Part shown: piece by piece, positions 14,090 to 21,242 of the stretch
Layout: every line of letters begins with the position of its first letter
How positions within the stretch are numbered: the stretch's first letter is position 1
From: a virus
Direction: 5' to 3' (one strand)
Virus record (IMG/VR): IMGVR_UViG_3300046517_000245
Coordinates: 1 to 31,012 of that record
Length of the DNA stretch: 31,012 bases
Program-made: the position numbers and the translations under genes
The notes under the pieces: generated by a model
Seen by the model: only the letters and a program-made list of their open reading frames with translations
What the model was told of the DNA's origin: nothing
Database searches by the model: none

Positions 14090-14361
14090 ACCACCGCCCC
14101 TGACCCATCCACCCAGATAGAACTTGAAGTGAATTTCAGAAACACAGGCTTCCCTAAAGTCTGATCGAAATAAGGCATCCCAACCCATCTAACTCCTGTA
14201 GACCCGGTAGGGCGTTCTGCTGTCGTCCCTGCTCTAGTAGAGTAGAAGCTCACGATCTGTAAAAGGTTGAAGAAAGCCGCATACTCAAGCGAAGGAATCA
14301 GACTGTCCTGTTGAACCACAGGAGATAGAGCTTGAGGCTGTTGGAGTTTCGGGCCTTCCAC
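14086..14361 (-). CDS. Small tail-associated protein, 91 aa
   Basis: GTG 14361 overlaps the gp10-like stop (TAGTG). The first half is helical (QQDSLIPSLEYAAFFNLLQI). The second half ends in YFDQTLGKPVFLKF…WVDGSGAVV, the Y-F-D-x-T-L-G-K-P-x-(F/W)…W-V-D-x-x-G motif common in small phage tail proteins. Position right after gp10 corresponds to the tail-needle slot in P22, but the protein is far shorter than gp26 and lacks its long coiled coil. A cap or connector role for the tail is inferred. Confidence 0.65.
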   Translation of the reverse strand: MEGPKLQQPQALSPVVQQDSLIPSLEYAAFFNLLQIVSFYSTRAGTTAERPTGSTGVRWVGMPYFDQTLGKPVFLKFTSSSIWVDGSGAVV

Positions 14362-15785
14362 TAGAACGCCCCTCCTACTATCTCAGCACTCGCGCCTGTG
14401 ATGATCCTTTTCACTGGATCGGTCACACGAAGTTTCAAAACCCAGTCTCTAGCCCTTCCAAGTCTTCTCCAGATGACTCTTTGAGTGTAAGCGCCTATCG
14501 CACCCATCGAGGCCCAAGCTACTGCTGTGAAAGTCTGACCCCCATCTTTAGAGACTTCAAGCATGATCTGAGGATTTACGCCTTGTCCCATCGTCAAACC
14601 GACTCCTGATTCAATATCGACCTGTATTTGAGGGATGGTCAGGTACTTATCATCCTGCCAGATATGCTTAGACCAAATCTCCATAGGGATTTGAGACCCG
14701 TTGTCATCGAATACACTAGAATCTATCTCGTAGATATTCCCGTTTCTATAGTCTGAAACAAGCTGTCTAGAGAGAAAGGTCTCGAACTTCTGCGCCCAAT
14801 GTCTGTTCCCATTCGTATCCTGACGTTCGGCCCAAGCATTAGAAGCTTGGTCGAATTCCCAAGACTTTTGAGCAGATGGGAAAGTCAGATAGAGCATTGG
14901 ATGTCCACCGAGCATATATCCAAAAGCCTTACAGTCTCCTACAGTCGTGTATTGGTTCAGAAGAAAGTCAATCTCCATAGAGGAAAGCTGTTGAAGCCTA
15001 AAGCCGGAGAGTCTGGATACGTTGACTTCTCCCATATGGTTAGTGAACAACCCAGCTAGGCTGTTGTCGTATTTACACAGACTGAATGGTGAGGCTAGCC
15101 CATATTCTTGAGCCGACCCAGGAATAGGAGAGTAAGGATTTTCTAATCCGGTATCCTGCCAGAACTCCGATGCTTTTGGCCCGAAGATGTTGAGGATTGA
15201 ATGATCCGCTATCAGAGCTTGAACTGCTCCAGGTGCTGTACCAGTGAAATTGATCTGAATAGCAGGCCAAGTCGTCGGGTCTCCGTTCGCTGACAGATTG
15301 AATTGATTAGTAAGACCGTCATTTACAATGAAATAGGTGTCCTGCCAAGTCACCGTCACAGGGTTGGTAGGGAAGTTGCCTGAGACTATTTGGTTAAGAC
15401 CCGCAGGGGTTAGGACGTTGTAGTAGTACCCGTTAAACCCATCTACCAGAACTAGGTTAGTCCCATCATCGACCATCGACACATCACCCGAAGTAGTACC
15501 GATAGTCCCGATTACCGAAGTCGTTCCTGCGTTGTTAATCGAGTAGAGTGTATTACCGTGTACACTGAAAAGTAGTGGGGTTGCAATAGTATCCACCGCC
15601 CACATCCCTCTGGAAGGATTAGAGCCTATCGTCGTACAGAAAGGGGTAAGTCCTGGAGAACCTATTAGAGCAAGGGACGTTCTATCCCCATCAGTCCTAG
15701 TCTCACAGTAGCAGTTGATCCTTTTCTGCGCTGTGATAGCCGGAGACTTACCCTTCTCGCCTATCCCGAATAGCTGTACTCTCAA
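14361..15785 (-). CDS. Packaged-DNA stabilisation/tail protein, P22 gp10-like, 474 aa
   Basis: Starts at TTG 15785 within a TTGA overlap with the gp4-like stop; GGAAGAGGG lies immediately upstream. The N-terminus GIGEKGKSPAITAQKRINCY followed by SLALIGSPGLTPFCT is the typical gp10 opening. A beta-propeller-like series follows (WAVDTIATPLLFSVHGNTLY, SVIGTIGTTSG, GTNLVLVDGFNGYYY, TWQDTYFIVNDGL). The C-terminal half contains PQIMLEVSKDGGQTFT, WRRLGRARDWVLKLR and VTDPVKRIITGAS, all familiar from P22-type tail accessory proteins. With gp4 it closes the portal after packaging and forms part of the tail. Confidence 0.85.
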   Translation of the reverse strand: MRVQLFGIGEKGKSPAITAQKRINCYCETRTDGDRTSLALIGSPGLTPFCTTIGSNPSRGMWAVDTIATPLLFSVHGNTLYSINNAGTTSVIGTIGTTSGDVSMVDDGTNLVLVDGFNGYYYNVLTPAGLNQIVSGNFPTNPVTVTWQDTYFIVNDGLTNQFNLSANGDPTTWPAIQINFTGTAPGAVQALIADHSILNIFGPKASEFWQDTGLENPYSPIPGSAQEYGLASPFSLCKYDNSLAGLFTNHMGEVNVSRLSGFRLQQLSSMEIDFLLNQYTTVGDCKAFGYMLGGHPMLYLTFPSAQKSWEFDQASNAWAERQDTNGNRHWAQKFETFLSRQLVSDYRNGNIYEIDSSVFDDNGSQIPMEIWSKHIWQDDKYLTIPQIQVDIESGVGLTMGQGVNPQIMLEVSKDGGQTFTAVAWASMGAIGAYTQRVIWRRLGRARDWVLKLRVTDPVKRIITGASAEIVGGAF

Positions 15786-16525
15786 TTCCCTCTTCCGTAG
15801 TTGTCTGAGTAGATGTTGTAAGTCGCGTAGGAGTGAGAAACTATCGCCGGATCGTAGTTACTAATCACTTCCTTGATATTGTTCGACTTCACTGCAGCTA
15901 GGGATTCTTCTGCCAGTTGGACAAGATTTTTCTGACCTGGCCCCACAGCAGGTATATCGAAGCCAAACATGCTTGAAATCTCAACCGCAAGATTGTAAAC
16001 ATAGGCCCTCTCATAACCGACTGGCATTGCCAGAACAGTAGTCAGGCTGGCAAATGTCACTTGGTTTAAGACGTTATCAAAGAAACAGGTATAAGCAATC
16101 AAAGGGGTCGGGAAGATGTTTATCACTCCCAAAGGGCTTTGGGGATCGTAGAACATCGTATTCGGAATCTGACTCGTCCTCGTAGGGCCTCTATTACCTA
16201 TCTGGTTCCACTTGTCTCTAGGTAAGAGTCTCATCAGGAAGTTGTTGTTGTTCGTATCCCTGATATAGGCTTGTATGATCTCCTGTGGACGAATGGTGTT
16301 TATATTCCCCCCAGGCCCTACTGTGTAAGAAGCCTGACCCACTACTAGAGGAAAGCTTTGTTCCTCGACCTCATAGGAAACTAAGTCATCCAGACTCCAC
16401 GAATCTAGCATTGCATTGAAAGCTACCAATCCGTCGTTAGCTTCTGCTGCTGTGGGAACTTCGGTAGAACCCAAAGCTTTCAGAGCTTTCATCGCCCTCG
16501 TGATAAGGTCGTTCGCAGTTGTCAT
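15782..16525 (-). CDS. Tail accessory factor, P22 gp4-like, 247 aa
   Basis: ATG 16525 overlaps the glycosyltransferase stop (TAATG). The N-terminus TANDLITRAMKALKALGSTE followed by PTAAEANDGLVAFNAMLDSW is the diagnostic opening of gp4/head-to-tail adaptor proteins. The next strands include SFPLVVGQASYTVGPGGNI, RPQEIIQAYIRD and a WNQIGNRGPTRTSQIPNTM stretch. The C-terminus VAAVK-type helix is present as EESLAAVKSNN. It binds the portal ring and extends the channel. It is separated from the coat gene by a block (GroES, methyltransferase, glycosyltransferase) that P22 lacks. Confidence 0.85.
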   Translation of the reverse strand: MTTANDLITRAMKALKALGSTEVPTAAEANDGLVAFNAMLDSWSLDDLVSYEVEEQSFPLVVGQASYTVGPGGNINTIRPQEIIQAYIRDTNNNNFLMRLLPRDKWNQIGNRGPTRTSQIPNTMFYDPQSPLGVINIFPTPLIAYTCFFDNVLNQVTFASLTTVLAMPVGYERAYVYNLAVEISSMFGFDIPAVGPGQKNLVQLAEESLAAVKSNNIKEVISNYDPAIVSHSYATYNIYSDNYGRGN

Positions 16526-18675
16526 TAGGCCGCCTTTGGAGGATTCCTCAAGAACGTGTCATAGTTACCCATCCAACCTTTGATTCCATAGTGTCCGAAG
16601 TGGATATTGGGATAGATATACCCTTCCACTCCTATAGCTCTCATCCTCTTACCGAAGACTCTATCCTCACCCCACCTCAATCCATCTGCTCTCTCACAGG
16701 TGTAGAATTCTGTGTACATACGTTCAGGGTAGGAAGGATCGGCAGAACTGTCTTGGTAGGTCATGTCTTTATAGTGGTCTTTGAACTTCACTAGACACTC
16801 TCGTTTCATCCTGATAAACCCACCTGATATGTATTCCGCTTGGATCAAAGCCGTACCATCAGGTAAGACTCTGCCAACAGGATGATGCTTTCCGTTTTCC
16901 TCTTTCAGAACAGGGATGGAAGTCCACTTATCCCATGAGTTTTTCTGAGGATAAGACCCCATTACAATCTGTTCCGGCAGTTGGAGAATCTTGATTAGAG
17001 CGTCTGGATTCCATTGCATATCCGAGTCGATGATAAAGAGGTCTGTAGCATCCGGGTCTTCCAGGAACCTCATGGTGATCGTGTTCTTTGCACGGTCTAC
17101 ATAAGAGTCTCCAGAAAGCTCGTGCCACTCCCACTCAATCCCTAATTGAGTCAAAACCTTGGTCGTATAGACCATACTTTGAATGTATGGACTAAACCCT
17201 CTCATCTCATAGAAAGGAGTCGCCAGAATCACCTTCATTCTAGGCTGGTAGTAAGGGATTTTAGCGTCGTGGTATCGCTGCTTCAGTTTCCTGGATTCTT
17301 CAGGCTTTAGAAGACTTTTGTTCTCTCCATGAATTCTCGTATGAGTAAGTGGTTCCTCGATGATCTTGATGTTCTCTCTCTGTAAAAGCTTGAGATACAT
17401 CTCATAATCTGTAAGGACTCCACAGTCAGCCCAACCACCGACTGATTTGATCGTCTTCGTCCGATACATTCCCACCCCGAAATAGACGTTCCCATAGTAC
17501 ATATGGGTCAACCACTGATCCCTGGACTTGTTAGCAGCTTTGGGGATGTTTTTGAAAGGATGGTCTTCAGCGAACGGCTTTCCTTCTTCATTGATGAAAT
17601 CAGTTTGGGAAGCGACAAATTCAAGCCAAGCGTCTTTCTTGAACTCTCCTAGTGCTTTTTCAATGAAGTTAGGCTCGATCAAATCGTCAGCAGCTAGAGA
17701 AACGTAGAACTCTCCAGTAGCTAATGAGGCCATTTGATTAATAGCTTTTACAGTACCCCTGTTCTCGTCGAACTTCAGGTATTTGATCTTCTCTGCGTAA
17801 GGTGTAAGGACTTCTGCCAGATTGTCTGTAGAAGCGTCGTCTAGAACTAGAATCTCCAAGTCCTTATAGGTCTGGTTCAGAACCGAATCCAGAGCTTGAG
17901 GAATGAACTTCGCCATATTGAAGACTGGAATTCCAACCGTGACTTTACCCTCAATCGGAGGGAGTTTTACTTGATGCTTCTTCCTCACCAACATGATGTC
18001 TTTAGCGAACTTCTCCGCTGAATCCGGCTTGGGTGCGGTAAGTCTAGTGTCCGGTTGATCGGCATCGGCCCATCTATAAGGCAGTACCATCCCTTCATAC
18101 TTCTTGAAGAATCGGACGAACCATTCAAGGTCTGAGCAATAGAAAATCTGAGGATCGAAGACACCTATATCTTCAACAATAGACTTCCTCATCAGCATCG
18201 AAGCTCCACCAATGGGGATGTTATCCAGAGTCAATAGGGTTCTTACCCAAGCCTCTGAACTCCTGTTGTGTGCTCTTAGAGTGTTCTGCTCCCACAAAGG
18301 TCTTTCACCCATAAGACCTTTACCCGGAAGCCCCCAGACACATCCGATTTCAGGATGTGAGTCCATGAACTCTACTTGGATTTTTAGCTTGTCCTTCTCA
18401 ATCCATTCGTCTGCTGAGAGGGGTTGGACATACTCACCTAAAGCATGAGTCAGCGCCCAGTTAAGTCCGTGAGGGATACCCCTGTTAGTAGGGAACTTGT
18501 GGAGTCTGATCCTTGGATCGTTGAACTCGCGTATTACTCCTTCGATGTCCTCTGTAGAACCATCGTCAACGATCACCAATTCCCAATCCTCGAATGACTG
18601 AGCCTTTACAGACTCAATCATCTTTTTCAGATATGTCGATTGATTGAGAACCGAAGTACAGACACTGACCTTCAT
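16525..18675 (-). CDS. Three-domain glycosyltransferase, 716 aa
   Basis: ATG 18675 directly follows a TAA, with GGGGGT upstream. Domain 1 (residues 1-235) is a GT2 fold: VSVCTSVLNQSTYL, VIVDDGS (Asp37, Asp38), LSADE (86-90) and SDLEWFVRF (181-189). Domain 2 (244-470) is a second GT2: VTVGIPVFNMAKFI, LVLDDASTD (Asp279, Asp280), LAADD (327-331) and LTDYEMYLKL. Domain 3 (480-716) is a different, phage-type glycosyltransferase: KVILATPFYEM, VDRAKNTITMRFL, LFIIDSDMQW with D-S-D at 550-552, SGGFIRMKRE, WGEDRVFGKRM (Glu670, Asp671) and HFGHYG. All three keep their nucleotide-sugar/metal acidic motifs, so three sugar transfers per protein are possible. Targets are unknown; virion or host surface glycan is inferred. 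Confidence 0.85.
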   Translation of the reverse strand: MKVSVCTSVLNQSTYLKKMIESVKAQSFEDWELVIVDDGSTEDIEGVIREFNDPRIRLHKFPTNRGIPHGLNWALTHALGEYVQPLSADEWIEKDKLKIQVEFMDSHPEIGCVWGLPGKGLMGERPLWEQNTLRAHNRSSEAWVRTLLTLDNIPIGGASMLMRKSIVEDIGVFDPQIFYCSDLEWFVRFFKKYEGMVLPYRWADADQPDTRLTAPKPDSAEKFAKDIMLVRKKHQVKLPPIEGKVTVGIPVFNMAKFIPQALDSVLNQTYKDLEILVLDDASTDNLAEVLTPYAEKIKYLKFDENRGTVKAINQMASLATGEFYVSLAADDLIEPNFIEKALGEFKKDAWLEFVASQTDFINEEGKPFAEDHPFKNIPKAANKSRDQWLTHMYYGNVYFGVGMYRTKTIKSVGGWADCGVLTDYEMYLKLLQRENIKIIEEPLTHTRIHGENKSLLKPEESRKLKQRYHDAKIPYYQPRMKVILATPFYEMRGFSPYIQSMVYTTKVLTQLGIEWEWHELSGDSYVDRAKNTITMRFLEDPDATDLFIIDSDMQWNPDALIKILQLPEQIVMGSYPQKNSWDKWTSIPVLKEENGKHHPVGRVLPDGTALIQAEYISGGFIRMKRECLVKFKDHYKDMTYQDSSADPSYPERMYTEFYTCERADGLRWGEDRVFGKRMRAIGVEGYIYPNIHFGHYGIKGWMGNYDTFLRNPPKAA

Positions 18676-18834
18676 TTAACCCCCAAGTTGAAGAAACATA
18701 GCCTTCGTTTTACGACTGACAGAAAGAGTAAGCAATGGAAACCCTTCCACGGTATGACCAAATGCTACGATAAAAATGATCCCGAAAAGTCTTTTTGCAC
18801 TGACATATTCAATGTGAAAAGTTTTCCACTTCAT
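18676..18834 (-). CDS. Possible small membrane protein, 52 aa
   Basis: The 133-nt gap between the methyltransferase stop and the glycosyltransferase start is covered by a frame ending at TAA 18676, whose stop directly precedes the glycosyltransferase ATG. It is open from ATG 18870, but ATG 18834 is more likely because it shortens the overlap with the methyltransferase. The product has a basic start (KWKTFHIEYVSAKR), a hydrophobic span (LFGIIFIVAFGHTVEGFPLL) and a basic end. No good ribosome site is seen. It may be real or a chance frame in a spacer. Confidence 0.35.
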   Translation of the reverse strand: MKWKTFHIEYVSAKRLFGIIFIVAFGHTVEGFPLLTLSVSRKTKAMFLQLGG

Positions 18835-19513
18835 GTAAGTGAGTCTCGCTCTTGTATAAAGTGAACCCAAGAGAATCGGTTATCAGAGGCCAGATACTTC
18901 CAACCGCAGGAGTACCAACTGCGTCTTTCCTGTACTGATGTTGGATAGGTTGCTTATCTGAAGTCGTCTCCGGGCCTTTTCTAGCCATACTGACTACTAG
19001 AATGTGATTCCCATGCGTCTTGGGTGAGGGGCCGTTCTTGTTACCTTCCCACTTGTATTTGAACCATCTCCAAGGGCCGTAAAGAAGCTCCCTCATAGAT
19101 TTATACGAGCAGATGTAAGCCTCCCACTCAATGAAGTTGTTCTCCCGATAGTAGTCACAGAACCATCCGGGGGAGTACATGAGGTAGGGGCTGTTAAATG
19201 AGGAAGCAGACTCCATGCAAACGACTCTACCCCCTGGTTTTAGCATCTTGCTGAAGTTCATCATCGCTTGGGCGGGGTTGAACATATTGTCTAGACACCC
19301 CCCATTGAAGATGAAATCGAACCTGTTGTGTAAATCTTCGGGTACGGGATAACCCAAGTCCCAGACGATATCTGCCCCTTCATAGTCCGACTGGTCGAGT
19401 ATCATATGAGGTATATCTAGAGGCTTGAATTCGGTTTGATAGCCGATAAACAAGACCTCACCCTTTATTTCAAGGGTTTTCAGGTAGTCAACTATTGGGG
19501 CGAGAAGACTCAT
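18809..19513 (-). CDS. SAM-dependent methyltransferase-like protein, 234 aa
   Basis: ATG 19513 lies 26 nt inside the GroES gene, with weak GGCGG upstream. A Rossmann-type core is visible but degenerate: GEVLFIGYQTE replaces the usual GCGxG loop, ADIVWDLGYPVP supplies an acidic strand 2-3 region, and RFDFIFNGGCLDN (motif IV-like) is followed by NPAQAMMNFSKMLKPGGRVV (motif V/VI, clearly Methyltransf_11-like). The C-terminal part contains GWFCDYYRENNFIEW, WRWFKYKW and a Gln/His-rich tail. A partner modification enzyme for the adjacent glycosyltransferase (sugar or virion methylation) is the most economical idea. The weakened SAM-binding glycine loop leaves activity uncertain. Confidence 0.65.
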   Translation of the reverse strand: MSLLAPIVDYLKTLEIKGEVLFIGYQTEFKPLDIPHMILDQSDYEGADIVWDLGYPVPEDLHNRFDFIFNGGCLDNMFNPAQAMMNFSKMLKPGGRVVCMESASSFNSPYLMYSPGWFCDYYRENNFIEWEAYICSYKSMRELLYGPWRWFKYKWEGNKNGPSPKTHGNHILVVSMARKGPETTSDKQPIQHQYRKDAVGTPAVGSIWPLITDSLGFTLYKSETHLHEVENFSH

Positions 19514-19796
19514 TCAGTACCGCCATGATTGAGTTCTGTCGGGTCACGATGAACTCTGTTCCGTTCAATTTAGTGACCTGATGCCCTCCAGTAGAGAATA
19601 GGACTACATCTCCCTTTTTCACATCGTTTGGGATGAAGACGCCTTTAGAAGACAACTTCCCCGGCCCTGCTTCTTCTACCGTACCGATGTCTTCTAGAAA
19701 ATCTTTGGAATCGACTAAGAAAATCCCCCCGGCAGAGATTTCCTGCTGAGGGGTTCTCCTGATGATTACTACATCTTGTACAGCTTTGAAGTTCAC
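19488..19796 (-). CDS. Phage-encoded GroES-type co-chaperonin, 102 aa
   Basis: GTG 19796 overlaps the previous stop (GTGA). The sequence follows GroES along its length: AVQDVVIIRR (GDRVLVKR in bacterial GroES), a mobile loop PQQEISAGGIFLVDS (residues 16-30) with GGIFL in place of GGIVL, IGTVEEAGPGKL (39-48), PNDVKKGDVVLFSTGG (56-71) and EFIVTRQNSIMAVLN (81-95). The hydrophobic tripeptide that contacts GroEL is retained as Ile-Phe-Leu. It should cap the host chaperonin, probably to fold the coat protein encoded two genes upstream, as T4 gp31 does for gp23. Length is close to that of bacterial GroES. Confidence 0.85.
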   Translation of the reverse strand: MNFKAVQDVVIIRRTPQQEISAGGIFLVDSKDFLEDIGTVEEAGPGKLSSKGVFIPNDVKKGDVVLFSTGGHQVTKLNGTEFIVTRQNSIMAVLNESSRPNS

Positions 19797-20029
19797 GCAG
19801 CTACCGTAGAACAGTTAATCAGCCCGAGGGAGTGCAGAGCAATAGCCAAAGAACTAGCCAAAGCTCCAGAACTCAGCGATAGAGTGATGAAAGAGCTTCC
19901 ACCCGATTGCCTTGCCACAGTACTGACGTTGTAGAAACTGATCTTATCGGTTGCGCTTTGTCCCATAACCGTACCTTGGGAGTTAGCATCCGACAGTTGC
20001 TTTACTGCATTGCTTGAAGATAGTGGCAT
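19793..20029 (-). CDS. Small coat-adjacent protein, 78 aa
   Basis: ATG 20029 is chosen over 20041: GGAGG stands 5 nt upstream and the coat stop lies just before it. The sequence has SDANSQGTVMGQSATDKISF followed by YNVSTVARQSGG and ends in a small hydrophobic Ala/Ser/Leu-rich tail (GALASSLAIALHSLGL). The GT(V/L)xGQSATDKIxFY motif is one I recall from tiny phage proteins encoded next to coat genes. It may be a minor decoration or head-fibre protein; the role is inferred from position. Confidence 0.6.
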   Translation of the reverse strand: MPLSSSNAVKQLSDANSQGTVMGQSATDKISFYNVSTVARQSGGSSFITLSLSSGALASSLAIALHSLGLINCSTVAA

Positions 20030-20030
20030 G

Positions 20031-21242
20031 TTAGCCTCCAAGACGAACGGCTAGTTCGTCGTAATAGGTCGTAGTACCGTACAGAATATCAATACGAGTC
20101 GGGAATACGTCATTGTTAATGTCGTAAGCCCTGATGACTCTCATAGAGATGTTTCTGTAAGTCTCGCGTGCAGCAAAGTCTACTCCTTGCGGGATTTCCA
20201 TCGGCACCATCACCAGACCAAACGCGTCCCGAGTAAAGGCGAGGTTGTTGGGCCCAGAGATTTGGGTAGCACTCGTACCAGACAACCACAGAATCGCAGC
20301 CGCTGTACTCATCGGACCTGTTGCATTCTGATACGGCCCAGAAGTGATTACAGAAGGAGAGAAGGTCACTGTCCAAGAGCTACCTGCTACCGCTGTCGTA
20401 CCAGTCACTACAAAGTTCTTCAAAACTCCGGTAGACAGACGGCTTTGCGGATTGACGTTGAAGACCCCAGCTACGGTGAAGACTTCACCCAGACCCATGT
20501 TCTCGGTCGGGGTTCCACCTGCCATAACTGTGGAGGCTCCATTGCCTTGAGGGCCTGTAACTGAGGAAACAGTCATAGCAATAGAACTATTATGCTGAAT
20601 CCCCGTAGCGCCTCCTGGGATGTTCTGATCCATATAGACTTCGTAATTACCGATGGTTGCCAGATAACCCTTCACGAGGGCTTCTTTGGCAGTCGGCATC
20701 ACAAAGCTTGGAGTCATCCCATTAGCAATCGCCCAGTAAGCAGCCGGATTCAGAACTAGAGTCCGGTTGTCCTGCGGAGCGGATAATTCATCCTGCCTCC
20801 GACCCGTAAGCTGAACCGAGGTCGAAAAAGCAGCAGGAGTAATCAAGGGAGTGCCTACATAATTGGAAATCCCCGAGGTTGCATTGGCTAGAACGTCCAG
20901 ATCGACCTTATTAGCCAGCGAAGCCATTGCAGGCTTCAGATACCTTTCAGAGAACTCCTCAACGGTTAGAGTCAGGTCTTGAGAAGTAAACTGGAAGTCC
21001 GCATGTTGCTGTTGGTTGATGGTAATCGTGACTGAAGGCTCAGCAATGTCCTGAATCTGAAGTCCCGGGCCTGAAGCAATCGTGAAGCGATTGGGTTTCC
21101 GAATGGTAAGAGAATTGCCAATCTTGACGAATTGGTTCTCGAACTTCCGGTTGACCCTGTTCGCCGCCACGAGGTTATTCTCCAGGATCACCAGACTTTC
21201 TTTAGTGATGATCGTCGGAGTTAGAAGTACCTGTGAAGACAT
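20031..21242 (-). CDS. Major coat protein, P22 gp5-like, 403 aa
   Basis: ATG 21242 has AAGGA about 8 nt upstream. The N-terminus TIITKESLVILENNLVAANR and KFENQFVKIGNSLTIRKPNR followed by PSVTITINQQQHADFQF and LTVEEFSERYLKPAMASLAN match the P22 coat family (N-arm, E-loop, spine helix). The middle contains the nested insertion-type domain region, and the C-terminus ends RIDILYGTTTYYDELAVRLGG. It forms the T=7-type shell with the scaffold encoded just before it. It is the probable client of the GroES two genes downstream. Confidence 0.9.
   Translation of the reverse strand: MSSQVLLTPTIITKESLVILENNLVAANRVNRKFENQFVKIGNSLTIRKPNRFTIASGPGLQIQDIAEPSVTITINQQQHADFQFTSQDLTLTVEEFSERYLKPAMASLANKVDLDVLANATSGISNYVGTPLITPAAFSTSVQLTGRRQDELSAPQDNRTLVLNPAAYWAIANGMTPSFVMPTAKEALVKGYLATIGNYEVYMDQNIPGGATGIQHNSSIAMTVSSVTGPQGNGASTVMAGGTPTENMGLGEVFTVAGVFNVNPQSRLSTGVLKNFVVTGTTAVAGSSWTVTFSPSVITSGPYQNATGPMSTAAAILWLSGTSATQISGPNNLAFTRDAFGLVMVPMEIPQGVDFAARETYRNISMRVIRAYDINNDVFPTRIDILYGTTTYYDELAVRLGG

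Follow-up and report, generated by a model that had tools for sequence, protein, structure and literature searches.

The DNA analyzed here (hereafter, the window), a virus record of 31,012 bases, encodes P22-type coat and portal proteins. We found that a single ORF of 716 aa on its (−) strand, at 16525..18675, starts with ATG and contains three putative glycosyltransferase (GT) domains (D1 to D3); the (+) strand opposite this ORF is full of stops. These coordinates agree with those of the original prediction, to which we add the strand. Its placement of the gene within the head-tail cluster proved right as well. Specifically, the gene lies between those for a P22-type major capsid protein (20031..21242; Pfam PF11651, E = 4e-36) and an SU10-type head-tail adaptor (15782..16525; phrog_12985, with Pfam SU10_adaptor below cut-off), its TAA stop codon overlapping the adaptor ATG (TAATG), and a head closure Hc3/stabilization protein is encoded next to the adaptor (14361..15785; phrog_578, E = 2e-81). 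All of the genes described in the window are on the (−) strand.

Further genes lie between the coat gene and the triple GT gene. The first encodes a small Ser-rich protein of 82 aa (19793..20041), for which we found no family in Pfam or PHROGs. It is kept beside the coat gene in most relatives, usually so in those that bear a GT, and a protein of 350–590 aa sometimes takes its place; we regard it as a candidate head decoration protein and a candidate glycan acceptor, and the coat protein is likewise a candidate acceptor. Directly after the coat region is a gene for a GroES-like co-chaperonin (19488..19796; Pfam Cpn10, E = 2e-16), which is also present in relatives without a GT (L139, L140, L142, and L161). 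The next gene encodes a methyltransferase-like protein of 234 aa (18809..19513) that matches the C-terminal half of the fold only; it seemingly has no clear SAM-binding motif I (VLFIGYQTE), and the enzyme may have degenerated or been altered.

Within the triple GT, D1 (aa 1–236; 17968..18675) and D2 (aa 237–476; 17248..17967) both match Pfam Glycos_transf_2 (PF00535), with an E-value of 2.7e-57 and 193.8 bits for the whole protein against a cut-off of 23.3. D3 (aa 480–716; 16528..17238), searched alone, matched none of the Pfam and NCBIfam models; it carries the motifs IIDSDMQW and WGEDRVFG and matches PHROG_1574, a family labeled "unknown function," over 220 residues (E = 9e-19). A search of the protein for hydrophobic or membrane segments revealed none.

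Conserved residues and predicted folds

Analysis of 21 aligned triple GT proteins, 48–86% identical to that of the window, revealed that the expected catalytic positions are invariant. In D1, these are the nucleotide-binding DD (D37-D38; 18562..18567), the predicted metal site D89-E90 (SADE; 18406..18411), and the expected catalytic base D182 (18130..18132). The corresponding set in D2 comprises D280, the predicted metal site D330-D331 (AADD; 17683..17688), and the expected base D423 (17407..17409), which sits in DYEMYLKL, aligned with DYDMYLKL of the chondroitin polymerase K4CP. Both Asp residues of the DxD motif of D3 (D550-S551-D552; 17020..17028) are invariant in the 21 triple fusions and in 34 D3 sequences, and D671 of the base-position GED motif (G669-E670-D671; 16663..16671) is invariant too; in D3 numbering, D71, D73, and D192 do not vary across the 34 sequences, which include stand-alone ones. 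Loss of key acids in homologues, a result that would have spoken against the original prediction, was thus seen in none of the 21 sequences.

The GT2 motifs had also been described as intact (DD with ADE or ADD). This holds for the second Asp of the metal site and the acid next to it but not for the first Asp of DxD, which in every one of the 21 sequences is replaced, by Ser/Ala in D1 (LSADE) and by Ala/Ser in D2 (LAADD). The replacement would fit a protein in which only one or two of the three domains are catalytic and the rest bind substrate or hold a complex together. Against this, the metal Asp, the next acid, and the base Asp of D1 and D2 are invariant, and dN/dS is low in all three domains (~0.03 to 0.23 per domain, read from pairs with unsaturated dS, pairs with saturated dS being left out); we consider such a division of labor quite unlikely. 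As these comparisons indicate, all three domains are under purifying selection, and the architecture is far beyond chance, given homologues of the same layout over the whole 48–86% range of identity and the low dN/dS.

AlphaFold models had a pLDDT of 88.8 and a pTM of 0.81 for the whole protein (21 sequences), with pLDDT mostly >85 in D1, and a pLDDT of 90.9 and a pTM of 0.89 for D3 (34 sequences). A Foldseek search with D3 gave as its top solved match the protein A197 of STIV (2c0n; E = 8.2e-9, probability 1.00), followed by the GT domain of lysyl hydroxylase LH3, a collagen glycosyltransferase. Further down was 2p6w, a PBCV-1 enzyme other than the one discussed below, whose fold resembles that of D3 weakly. 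When the D3 profile was run against PDB sequences, A197 was the sole match, and a weak one (E = 0.033). In its model, D3 has a GT-A fold. Three GT domains in one polypeptide, two of them GT2 and the third distinct, had been predicted from the sequence, and this is supported by motifs, conservation, fold, and selection.

With the whole model, the top Foldseek match was K4CP of E. coli K4 (2z86), another protein with two fused GT2 domains, which is also the best sequence match of D1-D2 and whose A2 domain is the closest solved relative of D2. K4CP makes a long capsule polymer and has no A197-like third domain. The likeness would suit a polymerizing synthase that yields a long polysaccharide coat, with D3 initiating the chain on a virion protein and the D1-D2 pair adding two sugars in alternation, as K4CP does. 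However, superposition of the whole chain on K4CP is poor (TM 0.3, rmsd >14 Å), so the domain arrangement may differ, and there are relatives of the triple GT, both GT2-D3 and D3-only, that do without the D1-D2 pair. We therefore assign a polymerizing synthase a low probability.

A ladder of fusions in the capsid-adaptor slot

Scans of IMG/VR, with domains assigned by profiles built for this analysis, yielded 53 full-length triple-fusion ORFs (repeat fetches of the same contigs counted), which correspond to 24 clusters at 95% identity and reach down to 48% identity. Since the 24 clusters come from many contigs, we reject an assembly artifact. Some relatives have D3 by itself or joined to a different C-terminal part; others have GT2-D3 or GT2-GT2-D3, and one has D3-GT2. 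The triple fusions form a single clade in the D3 tree, apart from contig-cut fragments; D1 forms one clade and D2 a separate one, and of the profiles, that of D2 gives the highest score with the GT2 domain of GT2-D3 proteins. Judged from the trees and profiles, the triple fusion has a single origin, and D3 would have come earliest, with D2 joining it and D1 being gained last. The original proposal of a short, ordered glycan becomes plausible in light of this sequence-derived ladder (D3, GT2-D3, GT2-GT2-D3), which predicts one, two, or three sugars, respectively.

Four apparent D3-only or GT2-D3 proteins inside the triple clade (L013, L022, L055, and L072) start at base 1–2 of their contigs and are contig-cut fragments. 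An 876-aa ORF (L079:2-2632) has a fragment, which from reading its sequence we take to be a MoxR-like ATPase, in frame ahead of the triple GT; we rejected it as a four-domain protein, the contig being probably chimeric. A genome scan for hosts returned only three MAG contigs, which belong to different phyla and are phage-contig-like, and no host was assigned.

Next to the fusion itself, its genomic position is conserved. Both markers were in view for 50 distinct D3 genes, and every one of these, including all 24 triple fusions (24/24), has the coat gene to one side and the adaptor or Hc3 gene to the other, with no other order seen. When relatives were sampled by coat protein, every genome with a coat identity of at least 68% had the triple fusion, whole or cut by the contig end; at 50–57% identity the slot held D3 or no GT, and in more distant genomes it was mostly GT-free. 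Other genes found in the slot in relatives encode a C-methyltransferase (Methyltransf_13/14), a rhamnosyl O-methyltransferase/CmcI, hexapeptide transferases, GDP-mannose-dehydratase-like and cytidylyltransferase-like proteins, other methyltransferases, and radical SAM/B12 enzymes. In two phage records, a methyltransferase is fused to the D3 gene or lies ahead of it. Many D3-only phages (L068, L112, L098, L099, L106, and L110) have radical SAM/B12-binding enzymes after the GT in the same slot, and L068 and L112 additionally have an MptE-like protein there, the match of L068 to PF01973 being weak. The adjacency of the triple GT to capsid genes may reflect late expression only.

Donor-sugar genes and marker genes in related contigs

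Over 25.9 kb, the window shares 99.1–99.96% identity with a related contig of 38,723 bp (G001). The two look like parts of a single ~44 kb genome that was cut at different places, each without a part that is present in the other. Upstream of terL (terminase) and on the same strand, G001 contains a sugar cluster of ~8 kb, which is absent from the window because the window ends inside the terminase gene. The enzyme names given here are at the family level, most NCBIfam scores being far below the equivalog cut-offs. The cluster encodes a GmhA-like SIS-domain protein, a transaldolase, an epimerase, a protein like heptose-1-phosphate nucleotidyltransferases, and a PfkB/HldA-like kinase. It further encodes a ThDP enzyme in two genes, an SDR, an FkbM methyltransferase, and proteins resembling 4,6-dehydratases and nucleotide-sugar dehydrogenases. 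We saw no phosphatase of the GmhB type.

The same gene set is present in G002 and parts of it in G003, G005, and G006; in G003, a homologue of the methyltransferase-like gene that neighbors the triple GT in the window is located inside the sugar cluster. The GmhA-like protein was found in G001 to G004 and at the edge of G009, and the same query had no match in G005 and G006 (two of the six large triple GT genomes). A ThDP enzyme together with a sugar epimerase occurred in six of the nine triple GT records (6/6 of those over 38 kb) versus 0/21 of the relatives that lack the triple fusion (Fisher P = 1.4e-4, in a test that ignores phylogeny). In all seven triple GT records tested, the triple GT was the source of the only GT2 hits (two each).

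Acetolactate-synthase-like ThDP enzymes normally consist of a single chain. The phage enzyme is split into two overlapping ORFs, an N-terminal PYR ORF and one with the middle and PP domains, in each of the four genomes examined (L118:17628-19278, L127:7606-9304, L125:11942-13530, and L124:2402-4104). Because the overlaps differ (26 nt, or a 4-nt start/stop type), the split is more likely natural than due to a sequencing error.

Heptose-type sugars are typical of LPS, so the donor cluster would also suit a triple GT that changes the host surface (LPS or another envelope glycan), blocking superinfection or altering a receptor, as in GtrB-type seroconversion; D2, moreover, matches PHROGs labeled GtrB-like O-antigen conversion. 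Yet the triple GT has no membrane segment, GtrA (PF04138) was absent from all eight records searched, and in every genome the gene is found with those for late virion proteins. Nor was a tyrosine integrase found in the records searched, which show no sign of lysogeny; a role in lysogenic conversion is thus not supported. On balance, we regard a change of the host surface as unlikely.

Some known phage glycosyltransferases act on DNA (PMC12619734, citing Pyle 2024), and glycosylation of the phage's own DNA by the triple GT has to be weighed too. We consider it highly improbable, since no thymidylate-synthase/hydroxymethylase homologue (PF00303) was found in seven large relatives and the gene lies in the capsid cluster, away from the replication genes. 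The markers missing from the records searched, together with the lack of a hydrophobic segment in the protein, make DNA glycosylation, seroconversion, and lysogenic conversion less likely.

Proposed glycosylation of the virion

We favor, with a probability of about two in three, a reading in which a soluble, assembly-line triple GT, supplied with unusual sugar donors made by the phage, assembles a short glycan on a virion protein. Its three GT-A domains, held in one chain, would add sugars successively in the cytoplasm during late infection. As the part that occurs alone in many related phages, D3 would probably transfer the first sugar, and D2 and then D1 would extend the chain. In the window's virus and its near-complete relatives, the donors would be made at least in part by phage enzymes, through a nucleotide-sugar route of the heptose type that includes epimerase/dehydratase and ThDP steps, and the glycan would probably be methylated. 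The acceptor would most likely be a virion protein, i.e., the coat protein, the adjacent small protein, or a tail protein. That virion proteins are the acceptors was already part of the original prediction; it draws indirect support from context, namely the slot shared by all 50 D3 genes, the A197-like fold of D3, and the lack of GtrA, integrase, membrane segment, and hydroxymethylase-type gene, and it stands here as a set of candidate acceptors. From these observations, we infer the transferase activity of the triple GT, its acceptor, the sugars and their order, and its role in a particle coat.

Comparison with known systems shows partial likenesses. One such system is A111/114R of the chlorovirus PBCV-1, one protein with three GT domains reported as galactosyl-, xylosyl-, and fucosyltransferase, which is thought to build the glycan of the major capsid protein with virus-encoded enzymes (PMC7826918). 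In contrast to the phage protein, it belongs to a eukaryotic algal virus, and its likeness to the triple GT is one of domain count. STIV A197 is essential for STIV and has been proposed to glycosylate the STIV coat protein (PMC10551542). It is a small viral enzyme with the GT-A fold of D3 but stands alone, comes from a virus with an archaeal host and an unrelated virion type, and resembles D3 in sequence at the weak level given above. In tailed phages, mycobacteriophage capsids and tails are glycosylated (Freeman 2023, cited in PMC12619734 and PMC11256854), and the jumbo phage XacN1 has glycoproteins (PMC5852040). These cases share with ours tailed-phage glycosyltransferases tied to glycans on capsid or tail proteins; they are likened here by description, and the text surveyed reports no triple fusion.

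Phage-encoded virion glycosylation is thus already known, and what seems new is that a phage of ~44 kb combines the triple fusion with a donor pathway of its own; a partial literature search found no report of such a combination in a tailed phage. More tentatively, we suggest as a possibility that this tailed phage carries a self-contained glycan system (heptose-type nucleotide-sugar pathway, split ThDP enzyme, triple GT, and tailoring methyltransferases) for a sugar coat on its capsid, in which the number of fused domains, as it varies across relatives, sets the length of the glycan. For PHROG_1574, until now a phage family without an assigned function, the results supply a fold, a motif, a gene context, and a likely activity. 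Autonomous viral glycosylation is best known in algal and giant viruses, virion glycans of tailed phages being scattered cases in the literature surveyed, and a small phage that seemingly makes unusual donors and joins them via a single enzyme of three domains would offer a compact model of it.
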